Source: Thiocapsa sp. (lineage in GTDB: Bacteria > Pseudomonadota > Gammaproteobacteria > Chromatiales > Chromatiaceae). Taken from it: 33,876 nt of DNA. Location: positions 1-33,876 of the forward strand of contig NZ_JAABRP010000034.1 of assembly GCF_011390875.1 (NCBI RefSeq), read 5' to 3'. Below, in pieces: positions 1 to 26,021 of this stretch (positions are counted from its first letter, which is position 1; each line of letters starts with the position of its first letter). Below the pieces are notes generated by a model that did no database searches, was not told the origin of the DNA, and saw only the letters and a program-made list of their open reading frames with translations. The position numbers and the translations under genes are program-made.

Positions 1-1964
1 AGATGGCTGAACGGCGGCAGCTCGGCCTCGCGTCGCTCGGCAAGGGCGGTGGTCGCGAAGCCCGTGTAACCCTCGCGCAACAGACTCTGGAGCAGCGGGT
101 GCTCGGGGTGGCGGGTCTGGAGGACGACCCGCCCGGGACGCTCGGCGCGGCCGGCGCGTCCGGTGACCTGCACAATCAGCTGCGCGGTGCGTTCCGGTGC
201 GCGGAAGTCGCTAGCGTAGAGCGATTGGTCGAGATCCAGGATCCCGACCAGGGTCACGCCCGGGAAGTCATGTCCTTTGGCCAGCATCTGAGTCCCGAGC
301 AGGATCTGCACCTCGCCGCGCCGGACCTCGTCGAGGAGGCGGGCCAGCTCGCCGCGACGTCGGGTGGTGTCTCGATCGAGCCGGGCGATGCCGACGCCCG
401 GAAACAGGGGGCGCAGCTCCTCGTCGAGTCGCTCGGTGCCGCGTCCGAGCATGCGCAGGTCCTTCCCCTTGCAGTCCGGACAGACGTCGGGCAACGGCCG
501 CGTCCAGCCGCAGTGGTGACACCAGAGGCGTCGGCGGGCCAGATGGAGCGTGAGTCGTGCGTCGCAATGCGGGCAGTCGCCGACCCAGCCGCAGGCGTGA
601 CAGGTGAGCAACGGGGCATAGCCGCGGCGGTTCAGGAAGAGCAGCACCTGGTTGCCGGCGGCGATCTCGGTGCGCATCTCTTCGCGCAGGACGGCGGAGA
701 GGCCGGCCTGGAGCGGTTGATTGCGGATGTCCAGCAGCGAGGTCCGCGGCGTGCAGGCCGCACCCGCGCGCTGCGGCAGGCGCAACCAGCCGTAGCGCTC
801 GGTGTGCGCGTTGTTGAGCGTCTCGAGCGAGGGTGTCGCCGAGCCCAGCACGACCGGGCAACCGACCAGCTGGGCGCGTCGCACGGCGACATCGCGTGCC
901 GAGTAGCGGAAGCCCTCCTGCTGCTTGAGCGAGGCGTCGTGCTCTTCGTCCACCAGGATCAGCCCGAGCCGCGGCAGGGGCACGAACACCGCCGAGCGTG
1001 TCCCGAGCACGACGCCTGCACGCCCGGATGCAGCGCGGTGCCAGGCCCGCTCACGTTCTCCTGCAGCCAGCCCGGAATGCAGCACGGCGGGCGGGTCGGG
1101 CAGACGCGAGGTCAAGCGTTCGCGCAACTGCGGGGTCAGGCCGATCTCGGGAACGATCAGAAGGGTTTGGGCGCCGCGGGCGGCGGCGGCCTCGATCAGA
1201 CGGATATAGACCTCGGTCTTGCCGCTGCCGGTCACGCCGTCGAGCAGGAAGGGGCGGAACCCGCCGAGCCCGGCCGCGACGCGACGAACCGCTTCGGCCT
1301 GATCGGCATTAAGCTCCGGGCCGGGGGCGGGCTCGGGGCGGGGTGGGTGCGTGACGGGCCCCGTCGGCACGAGGCGACAGGTTTCCAGCAGACCGCGTGC
1401 ACGCAGGCTGCGCAGCGTCGCGGCGCAGGGACCCAGGCATGCCGTCAGATCGGTTACCGCGATCCCCTCGGGTACGGACCTGACGAGGGCTAGAAGCTCG
1501 CGCTGTTTCGGGGCCCGCCGCAGCGTCTCGAGGTCAAGAGCCAGGCCGGCGGGTGTCGCCGAGACGCCCGAGACCTGTTCGTCCGTGATGGGTTTGGCCT
1601 GGCGCAGACGGGCGGGGAGCGCGCTGAAGAGGGCCTCGCCGATCGGCTGCCGGTAGTAGTCCGCGGCCCAGCGGATCAGGGTCAAGTCAACTGCGCTTAA
1701 GACGGGGCGTGGATCGAGGAGACGCTCGATCGGCTTCAGGCGCGCGGGATCCTGATCCGAGGTGTCGCGCAGCTCGAGCAGGATGCCCACGCGTCGACCT
1801 TGGCCGAAGGGCACCAGTACACGCTGGCCGGGTAGCGGTGGCAGCGCTTCCGAGCAGCCGTCCGATGCCGGAGCCGGCGGCAGATAATCGAAGGCGTCCA
1901 TCAGCGGCGCCGCAATGGCGACACGCAGGATCGAACCGGGCTTTCTGATCGGGGCGGGCGGCAC
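1..1964 (-). CDS. priA: Primosomal replication helicase PriA (3' end outside window)
   Basis: ATP-dependent 3'-5' helicase that restarts stalled replication forks and loads the primosome. Reading leftward, the protein has the N-terminal DNA-binding region (RVAIAAPLMDAFDYLPP, then WAADYYRQPIGEALFSALP), the Walker A stretch GVTGSGKTEVY, the Walker B box DEEHD, and a zinc-binding insert with four CxxC pairs (CHACG, CPHC, CHHCG, CPDC). It then continues through the helicase motifs QMLAKGHDFPGVTL and QVTGRAGRAERPG. About 654 codons lie in the window and the frame is open at base 1, so roughly the last 80-90 residues of a typical ~730-residue PriA are missing. I place the start at GTG 1964, ten codons before the conserved N-terminus. 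No strong Shine-Dalgarno decides it, and the frame stays open upstream into the repeat at 2020. The opposite strand is also open over much of this gene; that is antisense noise in GC-rich DNA. Identity is certain, the start is not. Confidence 0.96.
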   Translation of the reverse strand, partial: MPPAPIRKPGSILRVAIAAPLMDAFDYLPPAPASDGCSEALPPLPGQRVLVPFGQGRRVGILLELRDTSDQDPARLKPIERLLDPRPVLSAVDLTLIRWAADYYRQPIGEALFSALPARLRQAKPITDEQVSGVSATPAGLALDLETLRRAPKQRELLALVRSVPEGIAVTDLTACLGPCAATLRSLRARGLLETCRLVPTGPVTHPPRPEPAPGPELNADQAEAVRRVAAGLGGFRPFLLDGVTGSGKTEVYIRLIEAAAARGAQTLLIVPEIGLTPQLRERLTSRLPDPPAVLHSGLAAGERERAWHRAASGRAGVVLGTRSAVFVPLPRLGLILVDEEHDASLKQQEGFRYSARDVAVRRAQLVGCPVVLGSATPSLETLNNAHTERYGWLRLPQRAGAACTPRTSLLDIRNQPLQAGLSAVLREEMRTEIAAGNQVLLFLNRRGYAPLLTCHACGWVGDCPHCDARLTLHLARRRLWCHHCGWTRPLPDVCPDCKGKDLRMLGRGTERLDEELRPLFPGVGIARLDRDTTRRRGELARLLDEVRRGEVQILLGTQMLAKGHDFPGVTLVGILDLDQSLYASDFRAPERTAQLIVQVTGRAGRAERPGRVVLQTRHPEHPLLQSLLREGYTGFATTALAERREAELPPFSH

Positions 1965-2019
1965 GTTGGTTGGCGCTATTTCCGAGGACGGGTTCTTGAG
2001 GACGGGCGGCAGTCGTCGA

Positions 2020-2107
2020 TTAAACCGCGCCCGGTGCGATATGCGAAGTGTGTTGGATTGGCTTGACCGCGCCGGCTCCGATAACTGTCGGAGCCGGCGC
2101 GGTTTAA
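2020..2107 (-). repeat. Dispersed repeat A, copy 1 (TTAAACCGCG-ended)
   Basis: An 88-bp unit bounded by the 12-bp inverted termini TTAAACCGCGCC and GGCGCGGTTTAA. Its reverse complement aligns along its length with the copies at 3939-4025 and 20810-20896, although this copy is the most diverged. It contains an additional perfect 16-bp hairpin (arms 2066-2081 and 2088-2103, 6-nt loop) that the other copies lack. No transposase is encoded. This looks like a small non-autonomous, MITE- or REP-like element, and I do not recognise a named family. Confidence 0.8.
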
Positions 2108-2128
2108 GGTATTAATAAATATTAAATT

Positions 2129-2213
2129 TTAAAACGCATCTCACCGAGATCGAGAACATTTCCGAAGCCAAACGCAAACTAAACATGACGCACGTCGCTC
2201 TGGACGCGGTTTA
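2129..2213 (-). repeat. Dispersed repeat B, copy 1
   Basis: An 85-bp unit whose reverse complement matches the copy at 3833-3918 at about 73 of 85 positions by eye. The ends are degenerate versions of TTAAACCGCG (TTAAAACGC on the left, GCGGTTTA on the right). It is separated from repeat A copy 1 by a roughly 20-bp AT-rich spacer (2108-2128) that stands out in this GC-rich genome. Read on the plus strand it ends in a short open frame, MTHVALDAV then stop, which the other copy also keeps. Confidence 0.78.
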
Positions 2214-2324
2214 GGTCGATGCCGGGCGCGTTGGCGCCGAGTCCTGCAACGGCTCTACTCGAAGGTCGAAGACGATCTCCGATCTCCCGGCTCGCCCGAC
2301 ACCCGCACCTCGCCCCCGCCTCGG

Positions 2325-3695
2325 CTAGGGCATCCGCAGCCTATACTTCTCGATCTTGCGATCCAACGCCGGGCGGGAGATACCGAGGATCTCGCAGGTC
2401 TTGCCCTTGTGTCCGCCGGTGTGGTCCAAGACCCGTTGGACGTGCTCGGCCTCCACCGCATCCAGCGTTCGCAGCACCTGGCTCTCGGGGGGCGTGCCCG
2501 ACACACCGGTCTCGAACGCGCCTGGAGCGGTCGTGGGTTCAGCGTCGAGCGCGAGCAGATCGGCCGTGATCAGACCCGTGCGCGCCTGCACCATGGCTTG
2601 CGTCAAGCGGTTTTCGAGCTCCCGCACGTTGCCGGGCCAGTCGTGGCGGCACAGTTGCGTCAAGGCCGTCTCGGCGATGCGCGGTCGCGCTTGGCCCAGA
2701 CGCTCGGCGATGCGCGTGAGCAGACCTTCGACCAGCAGCGGGATGTCCTCGCGCCGTTCGCGCAGCGGCGGCATCTGAATCTGAATGACCTTGAGCCGAT
2801 AGGCCAGGTCTTCGCGAAAGCGCCCGGCCGCGGCCTCGGCCATGAGATCCCGGTTGGTCGCGGCGACCACGCGGGCGTCGGTCGCGATCGTCTCGGTGCC
2901 GCCGACGCGTTGGAAGACACGCTCCTGCAGGGCGCGCAGCAGCTTGGCCTGCAGCGTCGGGGCGAGCTCGCCGATCTCGTCGAGAAACAGGGTCCCCGCG
3001 CTCGCCAGCTCGAACTTACCGAGCTTGCGCGACTGTGCACCGGTGAAGGACCCCTTCTCATGCCCGAACAGCTCGCTCTCGAGCAGGGTCTCGACGATGG
3101 CCGCGCAGTTGACGGCCACGAAGGGGCCGGTTCGACCGCTGTGCTGGTGGATCAGGCGCGCCACCACCTCTTTGCCGGTGCCGGATTCGCCGCTGATGAG
3201 CACGGTGGCGGAGCTGCGGGCGCTCAAGGCAATGCTTTTGCTCACCGCCAGCATGGCATCGCTGCGCCCGATCAGGTCGCGCGCCGCACCCGGACCGGCC
3301 TCCAGGCGCGCCGGCGCCTGCTCGGCGGCCTTGCGTTGGCGCAGCAACCGCTCGACCGTCTGCTGCAGCTCGGCGATCTTGATCGGCTTGTGCACGAAGT
3401 CCGCGGCACCGCGCTGGATCGCCTCGATCGCCAGCTCCAGGTCGTGCTGGCCGGTCATCATGACCAGGGGCAAATCCGGGTCGGCCTTCAGCAACGAGGC
3501 GATCAGATCGCTCCCCTGCCCGTCCGGCAGCTGTTGGTCCAACAGCACCAGGTCGACAGGCGCCGCCTGCACGCGCTCAAGGCCCGAGCGACAGGACTGC
3601 GCGACCTCGACCGCGAAGCCGGCATCCTCGAAATGCATCGCCAGCATCTGGCCCAAGGCCGGATCGTCTTCGATGATGAGCAGTTGTCGGGGCAT
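2325..3695 (-). CDS. Sigma-54-dependent response regulator, NtrC/AtoC type
   Basis: A 456-residue transcription activator of sigma-54 RNA polymerase. Residues 1-120 are a receiver domain with the acidic pocket E9-D10-D11, the likely phosphorylated D53 in LLDQQLPDG, T81 and K103. Residues ~140-370 are the AAA+ ATPase, with Walker A GESGTGKE at 169-176, the sigma-54-contact loop as GSFTGA (the common form is GAFTGA) at 215-220, Walker B LFLDE at 236-240, and the NRDL and FREDLAYRL motifs. Residues ~413-456 form a Fis-type helix-turn-helix ending ISRPALDRKIEKYRLRMP. No histidine kinase gene adjoins it, which is unusual for this family. It stands alone between inverted repeat pairs, with ~110 bp and ~137 bp of unassigned DNA on its two sides. 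The kinase at 20918-22906, itself preceded by the same repeat, is a possible partner. Family call certain, target genes unknown. Confidence 0.93.
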   Translation of the reverse strand: MPRQLLIIEDDPALGQMLAMHFEDAGFAVEVAQSCRSGLERVQAAPVDLVLLDQQLPDGQGSDLIASLLKADPDLPLVMMTGQHDLELAIEAIQRGAADFVHKPIKIAELQQTVERLLRQRKAAEQAPARLEAGPGAARDLIGRSDAMLAVSKSIALSARSSATVLISGESGTGKEVVARLIHQHSGRTGPFVAVNCAAIVETLLESELFGHEKGSFTGAQSRKLGKFELASAGTLFLDEIGELAPTLQAKLLRALQERVFQRVGGTETIATDARVVAATNRDLMAEAAAGRFREDLAYRLKVIQIQMPPLRERREDIPLLVEGLLTRIAERLGQARPRIAETALTQLCRHDWPGNVRELENRLTQAMVQARTGLITADLLALDAEPTTAPGAFETGVSGTPPESQVLRTLDAVEAEHVQRVLDHTGGHKGKTCEILGISRPALDRKIEKYRLRMP

Positions 3696-4037: not shown

Positions 4038-4754
4038 ATGAACTGCCGAAATTTCCGTCGTCGACTCCTGGTCGACCCCGCGCGCGAGGAGGCCGAGGAT
4101 GCTCGACATGCGGCCCGCTGCCCGGCCTGCGCGGCCGAGCGCGCACGTGCACGCGCGTTCGACGAAACGCTGCGCACCCTGTTGGCCGAAGAGGTCGAGA
4201 CGTACCCGGTACCACCCGCCGGGCGTTCCGAGCGGCCACGACGGCTCCGCAGGATTCCCCCAGCGCTCGCCGCAACCGCGCTGCTCGCGTTCGGCCTGAT
4301 CGCTTGGCTCGGCGACAACCTGCAGCCGGGTTGGCCGACAGCGCCGTCGCACGCCCCGTTGGCCACCGCGGTTTTGGACCATATCGCCGCCGAGCCGGCC
4401 GCGCTGAAGACCGGTGGCGCGGTTCCGAAGCCGACCGTGACACTGTTGCTCGTCTCCCTCGGCCTACGCCTCGATCCGCAGGCCCTCGGCACCGGTTTGG
4501 AACCGGTGCGCTACGCGGCGCGGTGTCGCATCGCCAACCACGACGGCCTGCATCTGGTGCTCACCGGAGCGGCCGGGCCCGTCACCCTCTTGCTCATGCC
4601 GAAGACGCCGCTCGGGCGCGGCGCGCCGATCCGATCGGAAGACTTCAAGGGGCTGCTGATCCCGGCCGGGCGCGGGAGTCTCGCGATCGTCGGCACGCCC
4701 GACGAGCCCGTCACGCCCATCGCCCGGAGGATCCAACGCGAGCTCGTCTGGTGA
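4038..4754 (+). CDS. Anti-sigma-like membrane protein, DUF3379-type
   Basis: A 238-residue protein with an N-terminal zinc-finger-like segment of the anti-sigma (ZAS) kind: MNCRNFRRRLLVDP at the start, then HxxxCxxC as HAARCPAC near residues 29-36. This is followed by one predicted membrane helix (about residues 75-95, PPALAATALLAFGLIAWLGD) and a C-terminal soluble domain that would be periplasmic. DUF3379 proteins normally sit directly downstream of a gene for an extracytoplasmic sigma factor and would hold it at the membrane. Here there is no sigma gene upstream; repeat A copy 2 ends 12 bp before the start codon and no good ribosome-binding site is visible. The nearest sigma gene is at 17571. 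The gene may have been separated from its sigma factor by the repeat-bounded block. Family call moderately sure, role inferred. Confidence 0.7.
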   Translation: MNCRNFRRRLLVDPAREEAEDARHAARCPACAAERARARAFDETLRTLLAEEVETYPVPPAGRSERPRRLRRIPPALAATALLAFGLIAWLGDNLQPGWPTAPSHAPLATAVLDHIAAEPAALKTGGAVPKPTVTLLLVSLGLRLDPQALGTGLEPVRYAARCRIANHDGLHLVLTGAAGPVTLLLMPKTPLGRGAPIRSEDFKGLLIPAGRGSLAIVGTPDEPVTPIARRIQRELVW

Positions 4755-12399: not shown

Positions 12400-14853
12400 A
12401 TGAACCGCCTGCTCGTCGGTCTTGCCCTGCTGCTCTACCTCACCACGGCGGCGGTTGTCGGCTTCGGTGCCGAGGTCCACGACCGCGCGCATGCACCAGC
12501 AGACACCTCGACAACCTACCCGCCCGAGCTGCAACGCCGGCTGACGGCGGCGCTCGCGGCCAAGGGACCGGACTATCGCCCGCGCACCGAGCACCTGCTC
12601 CCCGATGGCCGGCCTCGCTACACCAACCGCCTGATCCTGGAGGATTCGCCCTATCTGATCCAGCACGCCCACAATCCGGTGGACTGGTATGCCTGGGGGC
12701 CGGAGGCGTTCGAGCGCGCCCACCGCGAGAACAAGCCGGTGTTCCTCTCCATCGGTTACTCGACCTGCCACTGGTGCCATGTGATGGAGCGCGAGAGCTT
12801 CGAGGACCGCGCCATCGCTGAGCTTCTGAACACGCATTTCGTGGCGATCAAGGTCGATCGGGAAGTCCGCCCCGACATCGACCAGGTGTACATGACCGCC
12901 GTGCAACTGCTCACCGGCAGCGGCGGTTGGCCCATGTCGAGCATCCTCACACCCCAAGGCGAGACCGTCGTCGCCGGGACCTACTTCCCGCCCGACGAAT
13001 TCAGCTCGCTGCTGCAACGCGCCAACGCCCTTTGGCAAGAGCAGCCGGAGCAGATGCGCGCCCGGGCGGCCGAGATCGCCCGCGCCGTTGCCGAGGCCCT
13101 CGCCGCCGAAGCACAAGCCGCCGAGCTCGGAGACCGGATCGTCGACCAGGCCGTCGCGAGTCTGCTTGAGCAGCATGACGAGCTGCAAGGCGGGTTTGGC
13201 GATGCTCCCAAGTTCCCGCAGCAGCCGCGGCTCGCGCTGTTGCTCGATCAGGCGCTGCGCCGGGACGATCAAGCCGCGCTGACGGCGGCCGTCTTCACGC
13301 TGCAGAGCATGGCGCGCGGCGGCATTCACGATCAAGTCGGCGGCGGCTTTCATCGCTACGCGATCGACAACGACTGGCTGGTGCCCCACTTCGAGAAGAT
13401 GCTCCACGACCAGGCGCAGCTCGCGCGCCTGTATCTGACCGGCTGGCGTCTGACCGGCGACCCGGCGCTGGCGCGTGTTGCCCGGCGCACGCTGGACTTC
13501 GTGCTGCGCGATCTGACCTCCCCGGCGGGCGGTTTCTACTCCGCCACCGACGCCGACAGCGAGGGCGAAGAAGGGCTGTTCTTCCTCTGGACGCCCGCGG
13601 AGCTGAGGTCCGCGCTGTCGCCCGAGGACGCCGAGCTCGCCATCGCCCTCTACGGGGTGACCGAATCGGGCAACTTCGAGGGGCGGAACATCCTGCATCT
13701 GCCGATCGCGCCGGTGAAGTTCGCCGCCGCCCGCGGCTTGACCCCGGCAGCGTTGTTGAAGCGCTTGGACGCCATCAATCAGCGCCTCTACCGGCACCGC
13801 GAAGGGCGCCCGCATCCGCATCGCGACGAGAAGATTCTGACCGCTTGGAACGGCATGATGATCACCGCCCTCGCCGAGGCCGCCGATGCCTTGGACGAGC
13901 CGCGCTACCTGACGGCTGCCCAACGCGCCGCGGAGCTGCTTTGGAGCGAGCTGCGAACGGCGCCGGGTCGGATCAATCGCGTCTATCTCGACGGACGCGC
14001 CGCGCAACCCGGACTGCTCGAGGACTACGCCTTTCTCGGACAGGCCATGATTGCGCTCTTTGACGCCACCGGCGAGCAGCGCTGGTTGACGCGGGCCCGC
14101 GAGATGGCCGATGCGCTTTGGGAGCGCTTTGCCGATCACGACGAAGGCGGTCTGTTCATGGGCGAGCCCGCCGAAGCGACGCTGCTGATGACGCGGCCGA
14201 AGGACGTCACCGACGGTGTCATGCCGTCCGCCACCTCGGCGGCACTGCAGCTTCTGGCGGAGCTGGCCCGGCGCACCGATGAGCTCGCTTACGAGCGGCA
14301 CGCGACGGGACTGTTGGCGAGCACATCGGGCCTGATCGCGCGGGTCCCGAGCGCCTTCCCGTCGTTGCTGACGGCGCTGAGCCTGATGCGCGACGGCGAC
14401 ACTGGGCGCGTGCAATACGCGGCGCTCGGCGCCGTACGCGCCGACGCCCACGTCAACGCCGAGACCGGAAAGGGCGACGACGGCAGCGCAAACCTGGTGA
14501 TCGAGCTGACCATGCGACCGGGCTGGCACATCAATGCCCATCGACCGCTGCAGGACGCGCTCATCGGGACGACCCTGCGCATGCGCGGGGACAGTGCGGA
14601 CTGGCAGATGGCGGCGCCGGCCTACCCGAACGCGGAGGTCCTCCGACTCGGCTTCCAGCGCGAGCCGCTGGCGGTCTACCAAGGCCGGGTCCAGATCGAC
14701 GCGACGCTTGAGCCAAACCCGCAACAGCGGGCCGATACCACCGAGGATCCAAGCGCGTGGCTACCCTTCGAGCTGCGTCTGCAAGCCTGCAACGACGCCA
14801 TCTGCCTGGCCCCGGAGACCCTGGTCCTGCAGGTCCCGCTGCCTGCCCGCTGA
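12400..14853 (+). CDS. DUF255 thioredoxin-domain protein with C-terminal DsbD-like domain
   Basis: 817 residues. An N-terminal hydrophobic stretch ([20 protein letters not shown]) is a signal peptide or anchor. Residues ~75-240 form the DUF255 thioredoxin-like domain, with [15 protein letters not shown], the CxxC motif in STCHWCHVM (C123, C126) and GSGGWPMS. Residues ~260-660 are the (alpha/alpha)6-barrel-like region of the YyaL/SPATA20 family ([47 protein letters not shown]). The last ~130 residues resemble the N-terminal domain of DsbD ([34 protein letters not shown]), with a C-x4-C pair. YyaL proteins usually lack the signal and the DsbD-like tail, so this is an exported fusion likely to act in periplasmic thiol chemistry. 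It faces the TlpA gene at 14972 tail to tail. Confidence 0.9.
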
Positions 14854-14971
14854 ATCAGCCGCTTCGGCAAGGACCGAGGTTTTCGTTTTTCCAATCCCCG
14901 CTCCCGCAAAGCCTCAAGCGAACCACGGTTACCTTGTCGGTCGTCGAACCGAGGGTCGTCGCGGGACGCCG

Positions 14972-15547
14972 TCAAGGCTTCGGCAGAAACGGCAGCAACT
15001 GCTCCACGGCCGCCGCGTCGTCGAACTCGGTCCCGCCGACGGCACGGATGATCACCCGGCCCTCCGGGTCGACCACGAAACTGGTGGGGAGGCCCTTCAC
15101 GCTCCAGTCCTGCGCGGCGCGCGAATCGGTGTCGAGCAGGAGCGGAAAGGTCGGCGCCGGATCCAGCTGACCGGTGAAGGCGAAGACGGTGTCCATGTCC
15201 TCGCCGACGTCCACGGCGAGGATCGTCAGGCCGCGCTCCTTGAACTGCTGATACAACCGCTCCATGGACGGCATCTCGCGACGGCAAGGCGGGCACCAGG
15301 TGGCCCAGAAGTTCACCAGGACCAACCGGCCTTTGAGGTCGGCGAGATCGTGCTCGACCCCGTCGATATCCTCCAGGCGCAGCGGCGGCGCCGGCGCGGG
15401 AGCCTCGATCACCGTGAGCCGGTGGCTCAGCGGCGGCAGATCGGTAGCGCCGCCTGTGCCGGCGGCTCCGAGGGTGCCGATGCAGAGGAGCAGGGCCGGC
15501 AAAACCGACAGGCCTGCGCGAATCCGGTCAATCGGTGCAACGCACAT
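14972..15547 (-). CDS. TlpA-family periplasmic thioredoxin
   Basis: 191 residues. The N-terminus has a hydrophobic export signal (AGLSVLPALLLCIGTLGAAG) with a cysteine at about residue 22 that may make it a lipoprotein or an anchored protein. The thioredoxin fold follows, with LVNFWATWCPPCRREMP, where WCPPC occupies residues 84-88, and the cis-proline loop KGLPTSFVVDPEG. Such proteins reduce or exchange disulfides in apocytochromes, copper proteins or other exported substrates. The start overlaps the end of the upstream gene by 20 bases, so the two are probably translationally coupled. Strong family call; specific partner unknown. Confidence 0.92.
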   Translation of the reverse strand: MCVAPIDRIRAGLSVLPALLLCIGTLGAAGTGGATDLPPLSHRLTVIEAPAPAPPLRLEDIDGVEHDLADLKGRLVLVNFWATWCPPCRREMPSMERLYQQFKERGLTILAVDVGEDMDTVFAFTGQLDPAPTFPLLLDTDSRAAQDWSVKGLPTSFVVDPEGRVIIRAVGGTEFDDAAAVEQLLPFLPKP

Positions 15548-16142
15548 CGTCGAGTCTCCCCTCGTAGGTTTGGTCCGCGATTCTCCAGCGGGCGATCAGA
15601 TCGAAGCGACTGCCGGGCGGCAGCCCCGTGGCCATCATGCCTTGATTCCACTCCCCGGGCGCATAGGATTGCTCGGAGGGGAACTGCGCCCAGCGGAAGG
15701 CGAGACGCGCCGAATCGGGCACGCCCCGCGCCGCCCATTGCGCCAGCCAGTCGTCCAACGGCGGAAGGGACCGGACCTCCTCGCTGTGTTGGACCTCCCA
15801 GTCGGACAGGCGAAAGTCGAGCGTGCCGGGCGCCGTGTCGTTGCGCAGCACGGTCATGTAGACGCATGCCTCGGCAAAGACATCCGCATCGGCCAGGTCG
15901 AAGCCGCGAGCGACATAGAAGGCGCGGACCTGGTCGGGCAGGAGCTGGGTGAGCGAGAGGCTCACGCCTTGAGCTTGGGTTTCGTAGGTGGCTGCGCCTG
16001 TTTCGGGATCGACGCGAACGGGCTCGGCGCTGATCGTGGGACCGACAAGGACAGCAACGACGGCGGCGGCCGCCGCGGCGTAAGGGACGGACAGGCGGCA
16101 GGAATGCGTACCGTTCGGACCGTTTTGAGGGATGAATCGCAC
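15528..16142 (-). CDS. Exported protein of unknown function, coupled to TlpA
   Basis: 204 residues, not recognised. An N-terminal signal sequence is visible (SVPYAAAAAAVVAVLVGP, then TISAEP). The mature part is strand-rich and acidic, with LPDQVRAFYVARGFDLADAD, ACVYMTVLRND, DWEVQHSEEVRSLPPLDDWL and a C-terminal ARWRIADQTYEGRLDDVRC. It has two cysteines in the mature part, one of them near the C-terminus. Its end overlaps the TlpA-family gene by 20 bases, so it may be the substrate or a structural partner of that thioredoxin. The 239-bp divergent gap to the ArsR-rhodanese gene probably holds promoters for both directions. Confidence 0.75.
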   Translation of the reverse strand: MRFIPQNGPNGTHSCRLSVPYAAAAAAVVAVLVGPTISAEPVRVDPETGAATYETQAQGVSLSLTQLLPDQVRAFYVARGFDLADADVFAEACVYMTVLRNDTAPGTLDFRLSDWEVQHSEEVRSLPPLDDWLAQWAARGVPDSARLAFRWAQFPSEQSYAPGEWNQGMMATGLPPGSRFDLIARWRIADQTYEGRLDDVRCTD

Positions 16143-16381
16143 AGGCTAACGCTCTCCGTATTCGGGCCGATCGGCTCGGTGTGTCTGCTGCGCGACCCGA
16201 CGGTGTACCCGGCGTCGGATCCGCCGGCGGGAGGCTCTGCGGCCGACCGAAAGAAGCTGGCGCCGCACCATCGCGGAGTCGTCCGTCGCCCCCATCGGCC
16301 GGCTGGAGCCTATACTGACCGCTCGCCGAACCTCGAACAACCCCGCCGTCGAGCCGTCATCTGCATCGGAGCACGTTGGAC

Positions 16382-17095
16382 ATGCCCAAAGCCCGCACCC
16401 CTTATCGGGCCGCCAAGCCACCTCCCGAACCGATTCCCGAAAAGGCGCCCAAGCAAGCCCTGTTCGAGCACCTGGCGCTCATCGCCCGCGGTTTCGCCAG
16501 CGCCGCACGCCTTGAGCTGCTGGATTTCCTGGCGCAGGGCGAGCGCAGCGTCGAGGATCTGGCACGGGCCGCAGGTCTCTCGATCGCCAACACCTCCAAG
16601 CATCTGCAGCAGCTCAAGGGCGCGGGTCTCGTGACCCCGAGACGCGACGGCAAACACATCTACTATGCGCTGGCCGACGAGCGGGTCCTCGATGCGATCG
16701 CCACGCTGCGCCGACTCGCCGAGACCCACCAGGAGGCCGTCGCGCAGCTGATCTCAAGCTACCTCAAACAGCGCGATGCACTGGAGCCGATTCCGGCGGA
16801 CGAGCTGCTGGCGCGCGCCCGTGACGGGCTGGTGACGGTGATCGACGTGCGCCCGCCGCAGGAGTATGCCCAAGGGCATCTGGTGGGTGCACTGAACGTC
16901 CCGCTCGATCAGCTGGAGAGCCGGCTGGGCGAGCTGCCGGAGGATCGCGAGGTGGTCGCCTACTGCAGGGGTCCCTGGTGCGTCCTTTCATTCGAAGCCG
17001 TGGCACGCTTGCGCGAAGCCGGTTTTCAGGCGAGGCGACTGCAGGACGGTCTGCCCGAGTGGCGCCGGGCCGGATTGCCGGTCGACGGGGGTTGA
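16382..17095 (+). CDS. ArsR-type regulator fused to a rhodanese domain
   Basis: 237 residues from ATG 16382. A GGAG box lies ten bases upstream; a TTG six bases earlier is possible but too close to it. Residues ~25-115 are a winged-helix ArsR domain (ARLELLDFLAQGERSVEDLA, then LSIANTSKHLQQLKGAGLV). Residues ~138-235 are a rhodanese domain with VIDVRPPQEYAQGHLVGALN and the active-site loop YCRGPWCVLS, in which C195 is the catalytic cysteine and C200 a second one in the loop. This architecture is known in sulfur-responsive repressors and suggests sensing of reactive sulfur species by persulfidation of the loop cysteines. The gene is transcribed away from the TlpA pair, which it may control. A strong stem-loop lies 12 bp after its stop. 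Confidence 0.92.
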   Translation: MPKARTPYRAAKPPPEPIPEKAPKQALFEHLALIARGFASAARLELLDFLAQGERSVEDLARAAGLSIANTSKHLQQLKGAGLVTPRRDGKHIYYALADERVLDAIATLRRLAETHQEAVAQLISSYLKQRDALEPIPADELLARARDGLVTVIDVRPPQEYAQGHLVGALNVPLDQLESRLGELPEDREVVAYCRGPWCVLSFEAVARLREAGFQARRLQDGLPEWRRAGLPVDGG

Positions 17096-17256
17096 GCGCG
17101 CATCGGCGTCATCGCCGCCGGCACGCGCGGGCGGCGATGACGATCCCCGCTCGGAACGGGTGGTTCGAAGGCATTCTCGGCCATGACCGCTGCGGTTGCG
17201 ACGATCGACAGGAGTGCGAGCGGGATTCGCGACGGTTTCGTGTGAACGGACAACAT
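17026..17256 (-). CDS. Possible small exported peptide (doubtful)
   Basis: A 76-codon frame whose first 26 residues look like a signal peptide (MLSVHTKPSRIPLALLSIVA, then AVMA-EN). The remainder is arginine- and proline-rich and overlaps both the stem-loop at 17108-17141 and the 3' end of the ArsR-rhodanese gene in antisense, which argues against a genuine full-length product. A GAGGTGAG box lies upstream of the start. It may be a remnant or chance. Confidence 0.2.
   Translation of the reverse strand: MLSVHTKPSRIPLALLSIVATAAVMAENAFEPPVPSGDRHRRPRVPAAMTPMRAQPPSTGNPARRHSGRPSCSRLA
17108..17141 (+). terminator. Stem-loop after the ArsR-rhodanese gene
   Basis: A perfect 12-bp inverted repeat, GTCATCGCCGCC at 17108-17119 and GGCGGCGATGAC at 17130-17141, with a 10-nt loop, starting 12 bp after the stop codon. 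No U-tract follows, so it may act with Rho or as an mRNA-stabilising hairpin. Confidence 0.6.
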
Positions 17257-17460
17257 GAGAGGCTCACCTCGCGGGTTTGACGGGTCTTCTCGACGGATCT
17301 CGCGGGTTCTCGGGGGATAGGACCCGCATCGGGATCGGTCTCTTTCGCGCCGCGGCGTGAGGAGCGCACCGGCGGGGGCCGTGCGTCGGGCAGATGCGAC
17401 GTATCGTGACAGGAGGCGCGACGGAGCCGGGCGTCGTCACGATTCGTTACAACGCTTCGT

Positions 17461-17486
17461 TTAACCCGATCCCGAAGAACTCGAAT
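17461..17486 (+). promoter_or_regulatory. Candidate ECF-type promoter of the sigma operon
   Basis: TTTAACC (17461-17467) and CGAA (17483-17486), 15 bases apart, resemble the GTAACC / CGAA layout recalled for the Caulobacter SigF group that controls DUF692-type operons. The position, 34-85 bp before the possible sigma-gene starts, would suit autoregulation. This is a by-eye match with relaxed spacing. The rest of 17142-17519 holds no gene I can support. Confidence 0.25.
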
Positions 17487-17570
17487 AAGGCATGATTTTT
17501 CAAAGCGATAGATGCTGGCATGACAAATGGCAGTGTTTCGGCGACTCCAATCCATCGCCGGACCATCGCC

Positions 17571-18095
17571 ATGAACACCGCACTCTCCGAAACCGCCCTG
17601 CCCAGGACAACACCCGAGACGTCCGGCTTCGCCGCGCTGGTGCAGACCTACGGGCGGGATCTGCATCGCTATGCCTACAGACTCTCCGGCAACGTCCACA
17701 CCGCCGAGGATCTGGTGCAGGACACCCTGCTGCGGGCCTGGCGCTCGCTGGATAAGCTGCAGAACCGCGACGCGGTGAAGGGCTGGCTCTTCACGATCGT
17801 GCGGCGCGAGAACGCCCGCCGCTTCCAGCGCGCCCAAGGCCAGGTCTCGGACATCCCGACCGAGGAGCTCCCCGACAGCCATGTGACCTACGACACCTCC
17901 ACCGAGGCCTTCGTCCTGCGTCGCGCCATCCGGGAGCTGCCCGTCGAGTATCGCGAGCCGCTCGTCCTGCAGGTGCTCCACGGCCTATCGCAGCAGGAGA
18001 TCGCCGATCGACTCGGCCTGACCTCGGCCGGCGTGGGGACGCGCCTGTTTCGGGCGCGCCAAAAGCTGCGCGCCTGCTTGGGGGAACGGGGATGA
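17571..18095 (+). CDS. ECF (sigma-70 family) RNA polymerase sigma factor
   Basis: 174 residues from ATG 17571 (an ATG at 17520 in the same frame is possible; neither has a good ribosome-binding site). Region 2 reads YGRDLHRYAYRLSGNVHTAE, then DLVQDTLLRAWRSLDKLQN, with GWLFTIVRREN at 2.4. Region 4 reads LPVEYREPLVLQVLHGLSQQ, then EIADRLGLTSAGVGTRLFRA. It would redirect RNA polymerase to a small regulon, probably including its own operon. No anti-sigma gene follows. Instead the stop overlaps the start of a receiver-domain gene by four bases (ATGA), which ties their translation and suggests the receiver replaces or supplements an anti-sigma. Confidence 0.92.
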   Translation: MNTALSETALPRTTPETSGFAALVQTYGRDLHRYAYRLSGNVHTAEDLVQDTLLRAWRSLDKLQNRDAVKGWLFTIVRRENARRFQRAQGQVSDIPTEELPDSHVTYDTSTEAFVLRRAIRELPVEYREPLVLQVLHGLSQQEIADRLGLTSAGVGTRLFRARQKLRACLGERG

Positions 18096-18553
18096 GCGCC
18101 GCCGATGCCGTCGACCGATTCACCGCGTATCACGGTCGCCGGCCGCGTGTCCTGCTCGTCGAGGACGATCGCGCCTTGGGTCGGATGCTGACCTCCACCT
18201 TCGAGGAGCACGGGGTCCGCGCTCTGCTCGCACGCACCTGCACCGCGGCGCGGACAATCGCCGCCGCGGCCGGCTTTGATTTGGCCTTGGTGGATGCGGA
18301 TCTCCCCGACGGCGACGGGGTGATGCTCGCCGAGGCGCTGCGTGCGGACCACCCCGCCGCTCTGGTGGCGATCTGCAGCGGCCGCCACGGCATCGGCGGG
18401 AGGGGCCATCTGCCGCCGGCCGTCGATGTGGTCTTGATCAAGCCGGTACCGATACGATTATTGTTGGATCTGATGGAGACCGTCTGCCGAACGGAACCGG
18501 ACGCGGTGTCCGGGATCAGGCACACTCGGGATGCGGCGATACGCCCGCGCTAA
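18092..18553 (+). CDS. Single-domain response regulator (receiver only)
   Basis: 153 residues. A CheY-like receiver fills residues ~18-132: VLLVEDDRALGRMLTSTFEE (acidic pocket E-D-D), LALVDADLPDGDGVMLAEAL with the phospho-acceptor Asp in LVDADLPDG, and the conserved lysine in VVLIKPVPIRLL. There is no output domain. The switch residue position reads AICSGRHG (Ser in place of the frequent Thr). The start is fixed by the ATGA overlap with the sigma gene. Its likely partner is the sigma factor or a kinase elsewhere; the nearest kinase gene is at 20918 but is normally expected to pair with a sigma-54-type regulator. Confidence 0.88.
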   Translation: MSAADAVDRFTAYHGRRPRVLLVEDDRALGRMLTSTFEEHGVRALLARTCTAARTIAAAAGFDLALVDADLPDGDGVMLAEALRADHPAALVAICSGRHGIGGRGHLPPAVDVVLIKPVPIRLLLDLMETVCRTEPDAVSGIRHTRDAAIRPR

Positions 18554-18569
18554 CCGGAGCACCGAACAC

Positions 18570-19037
18570 ATGCAGAAACTCGGAATTCTCGGCCTTGTCT
18601 TGATCTTGATCTCACCCGCGTCTTGGACACTCGCCGGCGATGGACCGAGCAATGGCCTGGTGGCGACAACCAGCCCGCACGGGGTCGCCGAAACCGCGGA
18701 TCGTGCCGAGGCGGCGATCGCCGAGCGCGGTCTCGGGGTCTTCGCCCGCATCGACCATGCGGCCGGCGCCACCAAGGCGGGTCTGGAATTGACGCCGACC
18801 GAGCTGCTGATCTTCGGCAACCCGACGGCAGGCACGCGACTGATGCACTGCAGCGCCACGGTCGCGATCGATCTGCCGTTGAAGCTGCTGATTTGGGAAG
18901 GCGCCGACGGCGTCACGCAGGTAGCCTACAACGCGCCGGCCTGGCTCGATACCCGGCACGGCCTCGGCGCCTGTGCGACGGTCTTGGACAACATCGACAG
19001 AATGCTGGCCGAGATCGTCGCGGCGGCCGTCGAGTAG
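18570..19037 (+). CDS. Exported DUF302 protein
   Basis: 155 residues from ATG 18570, with a GGAG box ten bases upstream. A signal peptide is clear (LGILGLVLILISPASWTLAG). The mature part is a DUF302 domain: AEAAIAERGLGVFARIDHAA, then ELLIFGNPTAGTRLMHCSAT, then LPLKLLIWEGADGVTQVAYN and APAWLDTRHGL. The family is widespread in sulfur oxidisers and other proteobacteria. Its structure is known but its biochemical role is not settled. It has two cysteines in the mature part. It lies 16 bp after the receiver gene and 75 bp before the MNIO gene, in the place where bufferin operons usually carry a small cysteine-rich precursor. Confidence 0.88.
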   Translation: MQKLGILGLVLILISPASWTLAGDGPSNGLVATTSPHGVAETADRAEAAIAERGLGVFARIDHAAGATKAGLELTPTELLIFGNPTAGTRLMHCSATVAIDLPLKLLIWEGADGVTQVAYNAPAWLDTRHGLGACATVLDNIDRMLAEIVAAAVE

Positions 19038-19112
19038 ATCCCGACTGAAGGAACGTCTCCGATCGCGCGGTCTGTATCCGTATAACGATTCCAACCGGAA
19101 CCCATTGACGGC

Positions 19113-19970
19113 ATGACTCCAGAACCCTACCCCGTTCACGGCGCCGGTCTCGGTCTGCGGCGTTCTTTTTTGGGCGCCCTGGCGGAGCGGCCGCCCGAGC
19201 GGGTCGACTTCTACGAGATCGCCCCGGAAAACTGGATCGGCATGGGCGGCGTGAACGCGCGCCGCCTCCGCGCGCTGACCGAGCGCCATCCCTTTGTCTG
19301 TCACGGACTCTCGCTCTCGATCGGCGCCCCGACCCCGCTCGACCTGCACTTCGTGCGGCAGATCAAGGCGTTCCTGGACGAGCACGGGATCCGCGCCTAC
19401 ACCGAGCATCTGAGCTATTGCTCCGACGACGGCCACCTCTACGACCTCTTGCCCATCCCCTTCACCGAGGCGGCCGTGCACCATGTCGCCGGACGCGTCC
19501 GTCAGGTGCAGGAGATCTTGGAGCGGCGCATCGCTCTGGAGAACGTCTCCTACTACGGCGTGCCGGGGCAAGAAATGTCCGAGATCGAGTTCATCAAGGC
19601 CGTGCTGACCGAGGCCGACTGCGACCTGTTGCTCGACGTGAACAACATCCATGTCAACGCCGTCAACCACGGCTATGACCCGCGCGCCTTCCTGGCCGAC
19701 CTGCCGGGGGAGCGTATCCGATACGGCCACATCGCCGGCCACTATGTGGAGGCCGAGGATCTGCGGGTCGACACACACGGCGCGGACGTCATCGACCCGG
19801 TGTGGGAGCTGCTGGATCTGGCCTACGCGCGTTTCGGGGTCTTCCCCACGCTCCTGGAGCGCGACTTCAACATCCCGCCCTTGGATGATCTGGTTCGCGA
19901 GGTCGATCGGATCAAAAAGATCCAGCAGGTCCACGCGACGCAATCGGCGCGGTGCGCGGCCGATGCCTGA
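19113..19970 (+). CDS. MNIO (DUF692) peptide-modifying iron enzyme, BufB-like
   Basis: 285 residues of the DUF692 family, now called multinuclear non-heme iron oxidative enzymes, TIM-barrel enzymes that oxidatively modify cysteines in ribosomal peptides (BufB, MbnB and relatives). Candidate metal ligands and pocket residues are visible: [20 protein letters not shown] (H64), TEHLSYC (E98, H99), LENVSYYG (E143), [11 protein letters not shown] (D175, N177), HIAGH (H206, H210), DTHGADV (D220, H222) and LLERDFNIP (E249). The gene overlaps the next by eight bases, as is usual for the enzyme-partner pair. No small cysteine-rich substrate gene is seen nearby. Function as a peptide modifier follows from the family; the substrate is unknown. 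Confidence 0.93.
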
Positions 19971-20742
19971 GCAATCCGATGTCAACCAGCCCGATTTCTT
20001 CCAACGCCAGCGCGCCTTCGTCGCACATCTGCGCGATCCCGCAAGGATCCCCGGACCGGACGATGTCGAGGATCGCCGGATGGCGATCTATCGCAACCTG
20101 GTGTTCAACAACGTCTCGGCCTTACTCGCGGGCAACTTCCCGGTGCTGCGCCGGATCTTGTCCGATGCACGCTGGAATGACCTGATCCGGGACTTCTTCG
20201 TCCGTCATCGCGCCAAGACACCACTCTTCCTGGAGCTGGGGCAGGAGTTTCTCGACTTTCTGCAGGGCGCACGCGCCAACGATCCTCGGGATCCACCCTT
20301 TCTTCTGGAGCTGGCGCACTACGAATGGGTCGAGCTGGCGTTGCAGATCAGCGATGCGGAGCCGGACCGCACCCGCATCGATCCGTCCGGCGACCTGCTC
20401 GACGGTCGCCCGGTGCTCTCGCCGCTGGCATGGAATCTCACCTATCGCTTCCCGGTCCATCGCATCGGACCGGATCTGCAACCGGATGCGCCGCCGCCGG
20501 AACCGACCCATCTGGTGGTCTATCGCACGCCGGACGACGCCATCGCCTTCCTCGAAATCAACGCCGTGACGCAGCGACTGTTGATCCTCCTGGAAGAGGA
20601 TACCCGGCAGACCGGGCGAGAGGTGCTCCGCCGCATTGCAGAGGAGCTCGGTCATCCGGATCCGGACCAGGTCATCGGCTTTGGGGCCGGATTGATGGAG
20701 GATCTACGCACGCGTGGGGTCTTGCTCGGGACAACCCGCTGA
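19963..20742 (+). CDS. DUF2063 MNIO partner protein, BufC-like
   Basis: 259 residues. The N-terminal DUF2063 DNA-binding-like domain is clear: [20 protein letters not shown], then [20 protein letters not shown] and [20 protein letters not shown] with RTPLF-like [17 protein letters not shown]. The C-terminal part ([37 protein letters not shown]) is typical of HvfC/BufC proteins, which bind the precursor peptide and hand it to the DUF692 enzyme. The ATG at 19963 overlaps the stop of that enzyme, so the two are coupled. It ends the operon, 67 bp before repeat A copy 3. Confidence 0.9.
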
Positions 20743-20809
20743 GCGAGGCGTCGGGATCCCCGCGCCGAGGCGTGGCTCGCGATCGCGCTTTTGTCCGTTC
20801 CTTCGCGTC

Positions 20810-20896
20810 TTAAACCGCGCCGACTCCAGCGGTCGTCAAGTCTGCCGGGGCCGATCCCATCCAAAACCATCGCATCTCGCGCCGAGCGCGGTTTAA
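20810..20896 (+). repeat. Dispersed repeat A, copy 3
   Basis: 87 bp, same orientation as the copy at 3939-4025 and about 70 of 87 positions identical by eye. The termini are TTAAACCGCG and CGCGGTTTAA. There is no neighbouring repeat B. It ends 21 bp before the start of the histidine-kinase gene, so it must overlap that gene's promoter region. On the minus strand it contains an open frame starting MRWFWMGSAPADL and ending GAV then stop. Confidence 0.82.
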
Positions 20897-20917
20897 GGTT
20901 CAACGGCCATCCTCGAC

Positions 20918-26021
<5,104 letters not shown>

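Follow-up and report, generated by a model that had tools for sequence, protein, structure and literature searches.

Gene content of the locus

The window, i.e., the whole 33,876-nucleotide stretch of Thiocapsa sp. DNA analyzed here, contains at positions 17461–20742 a run of five genes on the plus strand. The first encodes an ECF-type sigma-70 factor (17520–18095; Pfam Sigma70_r2, 1.6e-18, and Sigma70_r4_2, 2e-16), for which an ATG at 17571, conserved in relatives, is an alternative start. It is followed by genes for a stand-alone receiver (response regulator) domain protein (18092–18553; Response_reg, 1e-10), a DUF302 protein (18570–19037; DUF302, 5.8e-20), an MNIO of the DUF692 family (19113–19970) and a DUF2063 partner protein (19963–20742). 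The main Pfam domain of each of the five products scores above its gathering cut-off. Strand and positions, the overlaps of 4 bp (sigma factor and receiver) and 8 bp (MNIO and DUF2063), and the longest gap of 75 bp (plus strand, 19038–19112, between DUF302 and MNIO) agree with the initial annotation, and, as it also stated, no cysteine-rich peptide is seen in any of the gaps. In Thiocapsa sp. G009, an EGKCG precursor gene occupies the point corresponding to the 75-bp gap. A histidine kinase with HAMP, GAF, HisKA and HATPase_c domains (Pfam), not listed previously, is encoded on the same strand 175 bp downstream of DUF2063 (20918–22906); it also follows DUF2063 in genomes G001, G002, and G004 (91–94% identity).

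The MNIO belongs to the HvfB family (NCBIfam NF003818, score of 440.7 bits for a threshold of 360; PDB 3bww, E 1.1e-76) and falls below the cut-off for BufB (NF050167, 265.6 bits versus 310), while the DUF2063 protein belongs to the HvfC family (NF050145, 316.5 bits against a cut-off of 142; PDB 3dee, E 1.3e-7). They are the only intact MNIO and the only DUF2063 match found in the assembly. Since both pass the HvfB/HvfC cut-offs, the expected substrate is an EGKCG-repeat peptide of the oxazolin/captophorin kind. The earlier expectation of a DUF2282 precursor was thus misplaced, being suited to an MNIO of the bufferin BufB type, and a DUF2282 search of this assembly, which is 91.5% complete, found nothing at E 0.001. 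Across the class, an HvfB match over the cut-off is present in 117 of 369 genomes.

The EGKCG pathways (captophorins) comprise Hvf/oxazolin and fontiphorin types, and are characterized by 5-thiooxazole formation on the EGKCG cysteines and by copper binding (PMC13097082; PMC12452194). The HvfB-type MNIO, the HvfC-type DUF2063 protein and an EGKCG-repeat precursor with a signal-like N terminus are shared with the systems described there, whereas in the genome studied here the precursor lies at another locus and the maturase pair is flanked by the sigma factor, receiver, DUF302 and histidine kinase genes. The Buf1 bufferin clusters combine a DUF2282 precursor with a sigma factor and an NrsF anti-sigma factor (PMC12452194). 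The MNIO, DUF2063 and sigma factor genes resemble this arrangement, as does a DoxX gene near the sigma factor gene in G001, G002, and G004, although no DoxX of that type was found in the window genome; the differences are the MNIO score below the BufB cut-off, the lack of a DUF2282 match and the candidate anti-sigma factor, which is a DUF3379 protein.

A precursor gene on another contig

An EGKCG precursor gene is located in the same genome on contig C29 (14737–15048). Its product has six EGKCG repeats and a signal-like N terminus (such N termini were judged by eye throughout). It scores above the cut-off of the domain model for the HvfA family, NF050137 (51.5 bits versus 19.5), and below that of the stricter HvfA equivalog model, NF050188 (66.9 bits versus 95). 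The DNA pattern for EGKCG has seven matches in the genome, six of them inside this gene, compared with none for the reversed control pattern. A LysR-type gene, putatively NhaR, adjoins the precursor; the domain search showed LysR domains only. The precursor is followed by a stump, all that is left of an MNIO gene after its deletion. Of the two alternatives offered by the initial annotation, namely a precursor encoded elsewhere or DUF302 as a new class of substrate, the first is therefore borne out. As the seemingly missing peptide gene is present elsewhere in the genome, the pathway is of a known kind and only its layout at this locus is unusual.

The window genome is a draft of 390 contigs, which could suggest that assembly lost or misplaced a precursor gene truly belonging to the operon. 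This explanation is scarcely credible, because precursor and MNIO are also apart in independent genomes, two of which are single-contig assemblies (G001 and G003), and because T. roseopersicina DSM 217 (G002) has the same run of sigma factor, receiver, DUF302, MNIO, DUF2063 and histidine kinase genes with no precursor inside it. Given the completeness and fragmentation of the assembly, a further precursor could nevertheless be missing from it. Separation of precursor and MNIO has been described for bufferins of both the Buf1 and Buf2 types (PMC12452194); the present case is similar in this respect, but concerns the EGKCG type and has left remnants from which the separation can be traced inside a single genus.

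Arrangement of the pathway genes in Thiocapsa and wider relatives

Eleven Thiocapsa genomes were compared, an intact precursor being defined as an open frame with at least four EGKCG repeats. Eight genomes have both the precursor and an HvfB-type MNIO in intact form, two (G005 and G006) have neither, and in one (G008) both are broken, so that the precursor is kept or lost together with the MNIO in 11 of 11. In six of the eight genomes with both genes intact they are non-adjacent. The exceptions are G009, with the gene order DUF302, precursor, MNIO, DUF2063, and G010, with the order LysR, precursor, MNIO; no precursor adjoins the MNIO of the window locus. At the counterpart of the window locus in G010, DUF2063 is still present, as is the 5′-terminal part of DUF302; the sigma factor and receiver genes have been lost, together with the bulk of DUF302 and almost the entire MNIO. 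The LysR gene and precursor are retained with MNIO stumps in G000, G001, and G003. An MNIO gene once stood beside the C29 precursor and has since been deleted down to the stump. The main precursor copy of G002, G004, and G007 has neither the LysR context (by eye) nor a detected MNIO stump, and a history of duplication and loss is thus documented for some species only. The MNIO gene tree, meant to date the duplication, gave no resolved branching within Thiocapsa, and the sequence of events has been deduced from synteny.

The loss of the adjacent MNIO could also mean that the C29 precursor is a relic and that the window MNIO and DUF2063 act on a different, undetected peptide. Precursor genes do decay in this genome, as indicated by a second, degenerate copy on contig C49 with one EGKCG, and the literature describes certain MNIO loci to which no precursor has been assigned (PMC12452194). 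A relic is nonetheless improbable: the frame and repeats of the C29-type precursor are kept in seven other Thiocapsa genomes (with four of six EGKCG retained in G003), a promoter-like upstream stretch is common to several Thiocapsa precursors (by eye), the precursor directly before the MNIO in G010 is of the same type and that MNIO is 92% identical, and precursor and MNIO are retained or lost jointly, as described above.

A precursor encoded beside the MNIO is usual for such pathways, though not a defining feature. Of 80 named relatives, the best 80 of 135 found, 65 show three or more GxCG/KCG motifs in a run on the MNIO strand in the 1 kb preceding that gene, compared with none of the 80 in the opposite-strand control. 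No clear adjacent precursor (0–1 motifs) is found at nine of the 80 loci, and six more have two motifs. Three of the nine belong to the Thiocapsa genomes G002, G004, and G007, whose precursors are found elsewhere. Beyond Thiocapsa, G024 is a candidate for a split pathway.

The same comparisons bear on DUF302, one initial suggestion being that it is the modified substrate that takes the place of the cysteine-rich precursor; its two cysteines would then be oxidized by the MNIO and DUF2063 proteins before or during export. The gene lies on the same strand 75 bp upstream of the MNIO; as annotated, its product combines a signal-like N terminus with two cysteines (Cys94 and Cys135 of 155 amino acids), and both cysteines are conserved in the orthologs of G002, G003, G004, and G009 (tblastn). 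An in-frame ATG at 18531 would make the gene overlap that of the receiver. The closest solved relative is PDB 7tj1 (E 2.3e-30), named putative fluoride ion transporter CrcB. However, MNIO and precursor are present without DUF302 in G001, G007, and G010, DUF302 is intact away from the MNIO in G003 and G004, and in G009 DUF302 and a canonical precursor stand side by side. Furthermore, DUF302 is near the MNIO in two of the 80 named relatives, the best 80 of 135 found, as counted in the fetched flanks (full 5 kb upstream for 61 of 80, both sides for 48 of 80). The same two cysteines occur in the DUF302 proteins of G013 and G020, with no MNIO in the fetched neighborhood, and so fit an ordinary structural disulfide. 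Both findings that the initial annotation had named as refuting this idea were made: relatives carry a cysteine-rich precursor within the gene run, in one case with DUF302 beside it, and the presence of DUF302 does not track that of the MNIO. DUF302 as the substrate is therefore highly improbable. The open literature searched contained no match for DUF302 and DUF692 treated together, or for Thiocapsa with MNIO.

Proposed pathway and its regulation

The genes at 17461–20742 very probably supply the enzyme half of a pathway of the EGKCG type (oxazolin/captophorin, Hvf-type), whose precursor is the separate C29 gene. By analogy with the characterized FonBC and HvfBC enzymes, the MNIO and DUF2063 proteins would convert cysteines in the EGKCG repeats of the HvfA-like precursor, which would then be exported and probably bind copper. 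For FonBC, a mass loss of 8 Da is reported on a substrate with two repeats (PMC13097082), corresponding to about 4 Da for each modified EGKCG cysteine. With the precursor at a separate locus, where the MNIO is reduced to a stump, the pair most likely works in trans. The DUF302 protein, sigma factor and receiver would be accessory or regulatory neighbors, with the sigma factor presumably controlling the operon.

Two further regulatory genes are located in the window: one on the minus strand for an NtrC-type response regulator (2325–3695; Pfam Response_reg and Sigma54_activat), and one on the plus strand for a DUF3379 protein (4038–4754; Pfam DUF3379, 5e-23) with an N-terminal H-x3-C-x2-C motif. 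Homologs of the NtrC-type regulator are encoded upstream of homologs of this sigma factor in G013, G019, and G021, and DUF3379 directly after such homologs in five other genomes. Among the 11 Thiocapsa genomes, DUF3379 is found in the same four as the sigma factor, and is truncated in three of them. The DUF3379 protein is a candidate anti-sigma factor, on account of its place beside sigma factor genes and of a motif that resembles zinc anti-sigma domains; the open literature searched gave no match for DUF3379 in this role. A sigma factor paired with a receiver instead of an anti-sigma factor had been suggested for this operon. The pairing itself is real, as the two genes also occur together without an MNIO in G013 and G015, while the replacement of the anti-sigma factor is weakened by the presence of DUF3379 in the window.

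These genes allow a more elaborate scheme, which is possible but rather unlikely: the enzyme pair, detached from its precursor, would have its own circuit of ECF sigma factor, DUF3379 anti-sigma factor, receiver, histidine kinase and NtrC regulator. Regulation would then act on the amount of the enzymes and not on that of the peptide, and a single pair would serve, in trans, precursors encoded at scattered loci, DUF302 being a helper in the periplasm or an occasional second client. No motif shared by the upstream stretches of the sigma factor operon and the precursor was seen when they were compared by eye.

Overall, the reading of the locus as the maturase half of an EGKCG-type pathway removes a false lead, that of DUF302 as a new class of MNIO substrate, and shows by a concrete case why the whole genome should be searched when an MNIO has no precursor next to it. 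In this single genus, the genes of the pathway can be clustered, split, with the MNIO retained at either of two loci, or lost altogether, and these layouts amount to natural-genetics evidence tying the maturase to its precursor. The sigma factor, DUF3379 protein, receiver, NtrC-type regulator and histidine kinase are testable regulatory partners for the captophorin pathway.

The MNIO operon and its precursor

The genes coding for a sigma factor, a receiver, a DUF302 protein, an MNIO (DUF692) protein and a DUF2063 protein lie on the plus strand (17520–20742), with the placement and overlaps described in the initial annotation. The MNIO protein scored above the NCBIfam model of HvfB (440.7 bits, cut-off 360) and under the cut-off of the bufferin enzyme BufB (265.6 bits versus 310), and the DUF2063 protein exceeded the NCBIfam HvfC model (316.5 bits, cut-off 142). 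PDB structure 3bww aligned to MNIO in two stretches covering most of the MNIO length. The expected partner of such an HvfB/HvfC-type pair is therefore a precursor with EGKCG repeats, like those of oxazolin and fontiphorin, and not the DUF2282-type peptide assumed initially; DUF2282 had no match in a search of this Thiocapsa sp. genome (G000). A histidine kinase gene is located 3' of DUF2063 on the same strand after a 175 bp gap, and likewise follows DUF2063 in the Thiocapsa genomes G001, G002 (T. roseopersicina DSM 217) and G004.

Redox and thiol genes surround the operon (12400–25140): a DUF255/thioredoxin-like gene (12400–14853), an AhpC-TSA/TlpA-like gene (14972–15547), an ArsR-rhodanese gene (16376–17095) and a haem peroxidase gene (22903–25140), which we take to be a catalase-peroxidase.

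The EGKCG DNA pattern had seven matches in the G000 genome and its reversed control none. Six matches fell in one reading frame on contig C29 (14737–15048), encoding a 104-residue protein, counted from the ATG common to homologues, with six EGKCG units and a signal-like N terminus. This protein exceeded the cut-off of NF050137, a domain model of the HvfA family (51.5 bits versus 19.5), but not that of the stricter equivalog NF050188 (66.9 bits versus 95). Thus, of the two options raised initially, a precursor encoded elsewhere is borne out. A short MNIO gene stump lies directly 3' of the precursor gene; a search of the genome returned a single intact MNIO gene. The seventh match belongs to a degenerate precursor copy with one repeat on contig C49 (1437–1649), the 3' part of which continues into sequence matching the DUF3379 region.

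The observed gene layout stands; the more striking option, DUF302 as a new substrate class, is very unlikely given the C29 precursor and the rarity of DUF302 near MNIO. It was found there in 2 of the best 80 of 135 named relatives, both Thiocapsa; a few cases could have been missed, with the full 5 kb upstream covered in 61 of the 80 loci and both sides in 48. Nor does its presence follow that of MNIO: at 70% identity or more, DUF302 occurs in five of the 11 Thiocapsa genomes (G000, G002, G003, G004 and G009), adjoining MNIO in three (G000, G002 and G009), and G001, G007 and G010 carry MNIO and precursor without it. Both DUF302 cysteines also occur in proteins of the relatives G013 and G020, where no MNIO was found within the fetched neighbourhood.

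Co-occurrence and separation of precursor and MNIO

An intact precursor (an open frame with four to six EGKCG) accompanies an intact HvfB-type MNIO in eight of the 11 Thiocapsa genomes (G000–G004, G007, G009 and G010). Both are missing in G005, whose sole MNIO is 37% identical, and G006, and both are broken in G008. Assuming independent genomes, the chance of such agreement is 1 in 165, a guide only since the genomes are related. The two genes adjoin in just two of the eight (G009 and G010); in G001, 23 kb separate MNIO from the closest precursor copy, and in the others they lie on different contigs or megabases apart. Of the best 80 of 135 named relatives' loci, 65 have a precursor-like run of three or more GxCG/KCG motifs in the 1 kb preceding MNIO, six have two motifs, and nine have none or one; the opposite-strand control gave such runs in 0 of 80. 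Outside Thiocapsa, G024 encodes an HvfB-type MNIO on contig C12, where no EGKCG motif adjoins it; the EGKCG precursor of this genome is on C18.

The window is from Thiocapsa, and the closest MNIO proteins among the best 80 of 135 named relatives are those of T. roseopersicina DSM 217, T. marina 5811 and two Thiocapsa MAGs. The precursor is directly upstream of MNIO in 10 of 18 relatives' neighbourhoods, one of them broken (G008), and absent from this position in eight, two of which (G005 and G017) have only distant MNIOs. The gene order in G009 is DUF302, precursor, MNIO, DUF2063; a weak match to the 3' end of the receiver gene (66% over 183 bp, E 2e-4) precedes DUF302. In G010, MNIO and precursor adjoin a LysR-type gene. 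The DUF2063 gene of this genome lies 2.7 Mb from MNIO in contig coordinates, at a window-type locus next to an ArsR-rhodanese gene, where the DUF302 5' end is kept and MNIO is almost wholly gone. G000, G001 and G003 show the reverse, with only MNIO stumps at the LysR-precursor locus and MNIO with DUF2063 at the other. The simplest history is duplication of the MNIO gene and loss of different copies in different species. This account is not complete, because at the main precursor copies of G002, G004 and G007 no MNIO stump was detected and no LysR context was seen by eye, and the MNIO gene tree did not resolve the order of events. In T. roseopersicina (G002:C27 4873–5776), the ArsR-rhodanese gene, which precedes the operon in the window, is followed by an MNIO 5' stump on a contig other than the operon's; this stump is a further rearrangement remnant.

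The sigma factor module

An intact sigma factor gene is present in four Thiocapsa genomes of the 11 (G000, G001, G002 and G004), exactly those with DUF3379, the gene of which is divergent from an NtrC-type gene. Only the window genome carries DUF3379 at full length; in the other three it may be decaying, since just the N-terminal part with an H-x3-C-x2-C motif remains. The DUF3379 and NtrC-type genes are located 13–15 kb upstream of the sigma factor in the window. In G004, a region of about 6 kb contains sigma, receiver, broken DUF302 and DUF3379 genes together with the NtrC-type gene and a further (second) copy of the EGKCG precursor. Among other relatives, the sigma homologue is followed 3' by DUF3379 in G011, G016, G030, G036 (a weak match, E 3e-4) and G037; in G013 and G015 the gene after it codes for a receiver, and an NtrC-type gene lies 5' of it in G013, G019 and G021; DUF3379 had no match in G013 and G021. 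The sigma module is thus part of the captophorin neighbourhood, with DUF3379 as a candidate anti-sigma factor. We infer that the sigma factor drives the MNIO operon.

PMC12452194 describes DoxX as a core member of such clusters; a DoxX gene adjoins the sigma gene divergently in G001, G002 and G004, and DoxX of this type had no match in the window genome. An inverted repeat precedes the sigma gene (17399–17410/17436–17447, one mismatch) and was seen by eye upstream of that gene in these three genomes too; it could serve as an operator or form a leader hairpin. Contig C437 of G015 carries a complete DUF3379 gene (297–1004, minus strand) and, about 1 kb away, an MNIO gene of 40% identity (1959–2744, plus strand); the sigma homologue is on another contig.

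Proposed pathway

According to PMC13097082, FonBC and HvfBC form 5-thiooxazole on EGKCG repeats, and fontiphorin binds copper. In the best-supported reading, MNIO and DUF2063 would modify cysteines of the EGKCG precursor encoded at another locus, and the product would then be exported and bind copper. Because PMC12452194 describes precursors encoded apart from the maturase for the bufferin types Buf1 and Buf2, a precursor supplied in trans has precedent. The locus belongs to an EGKCG captophorin pathway whose layout is unusual.
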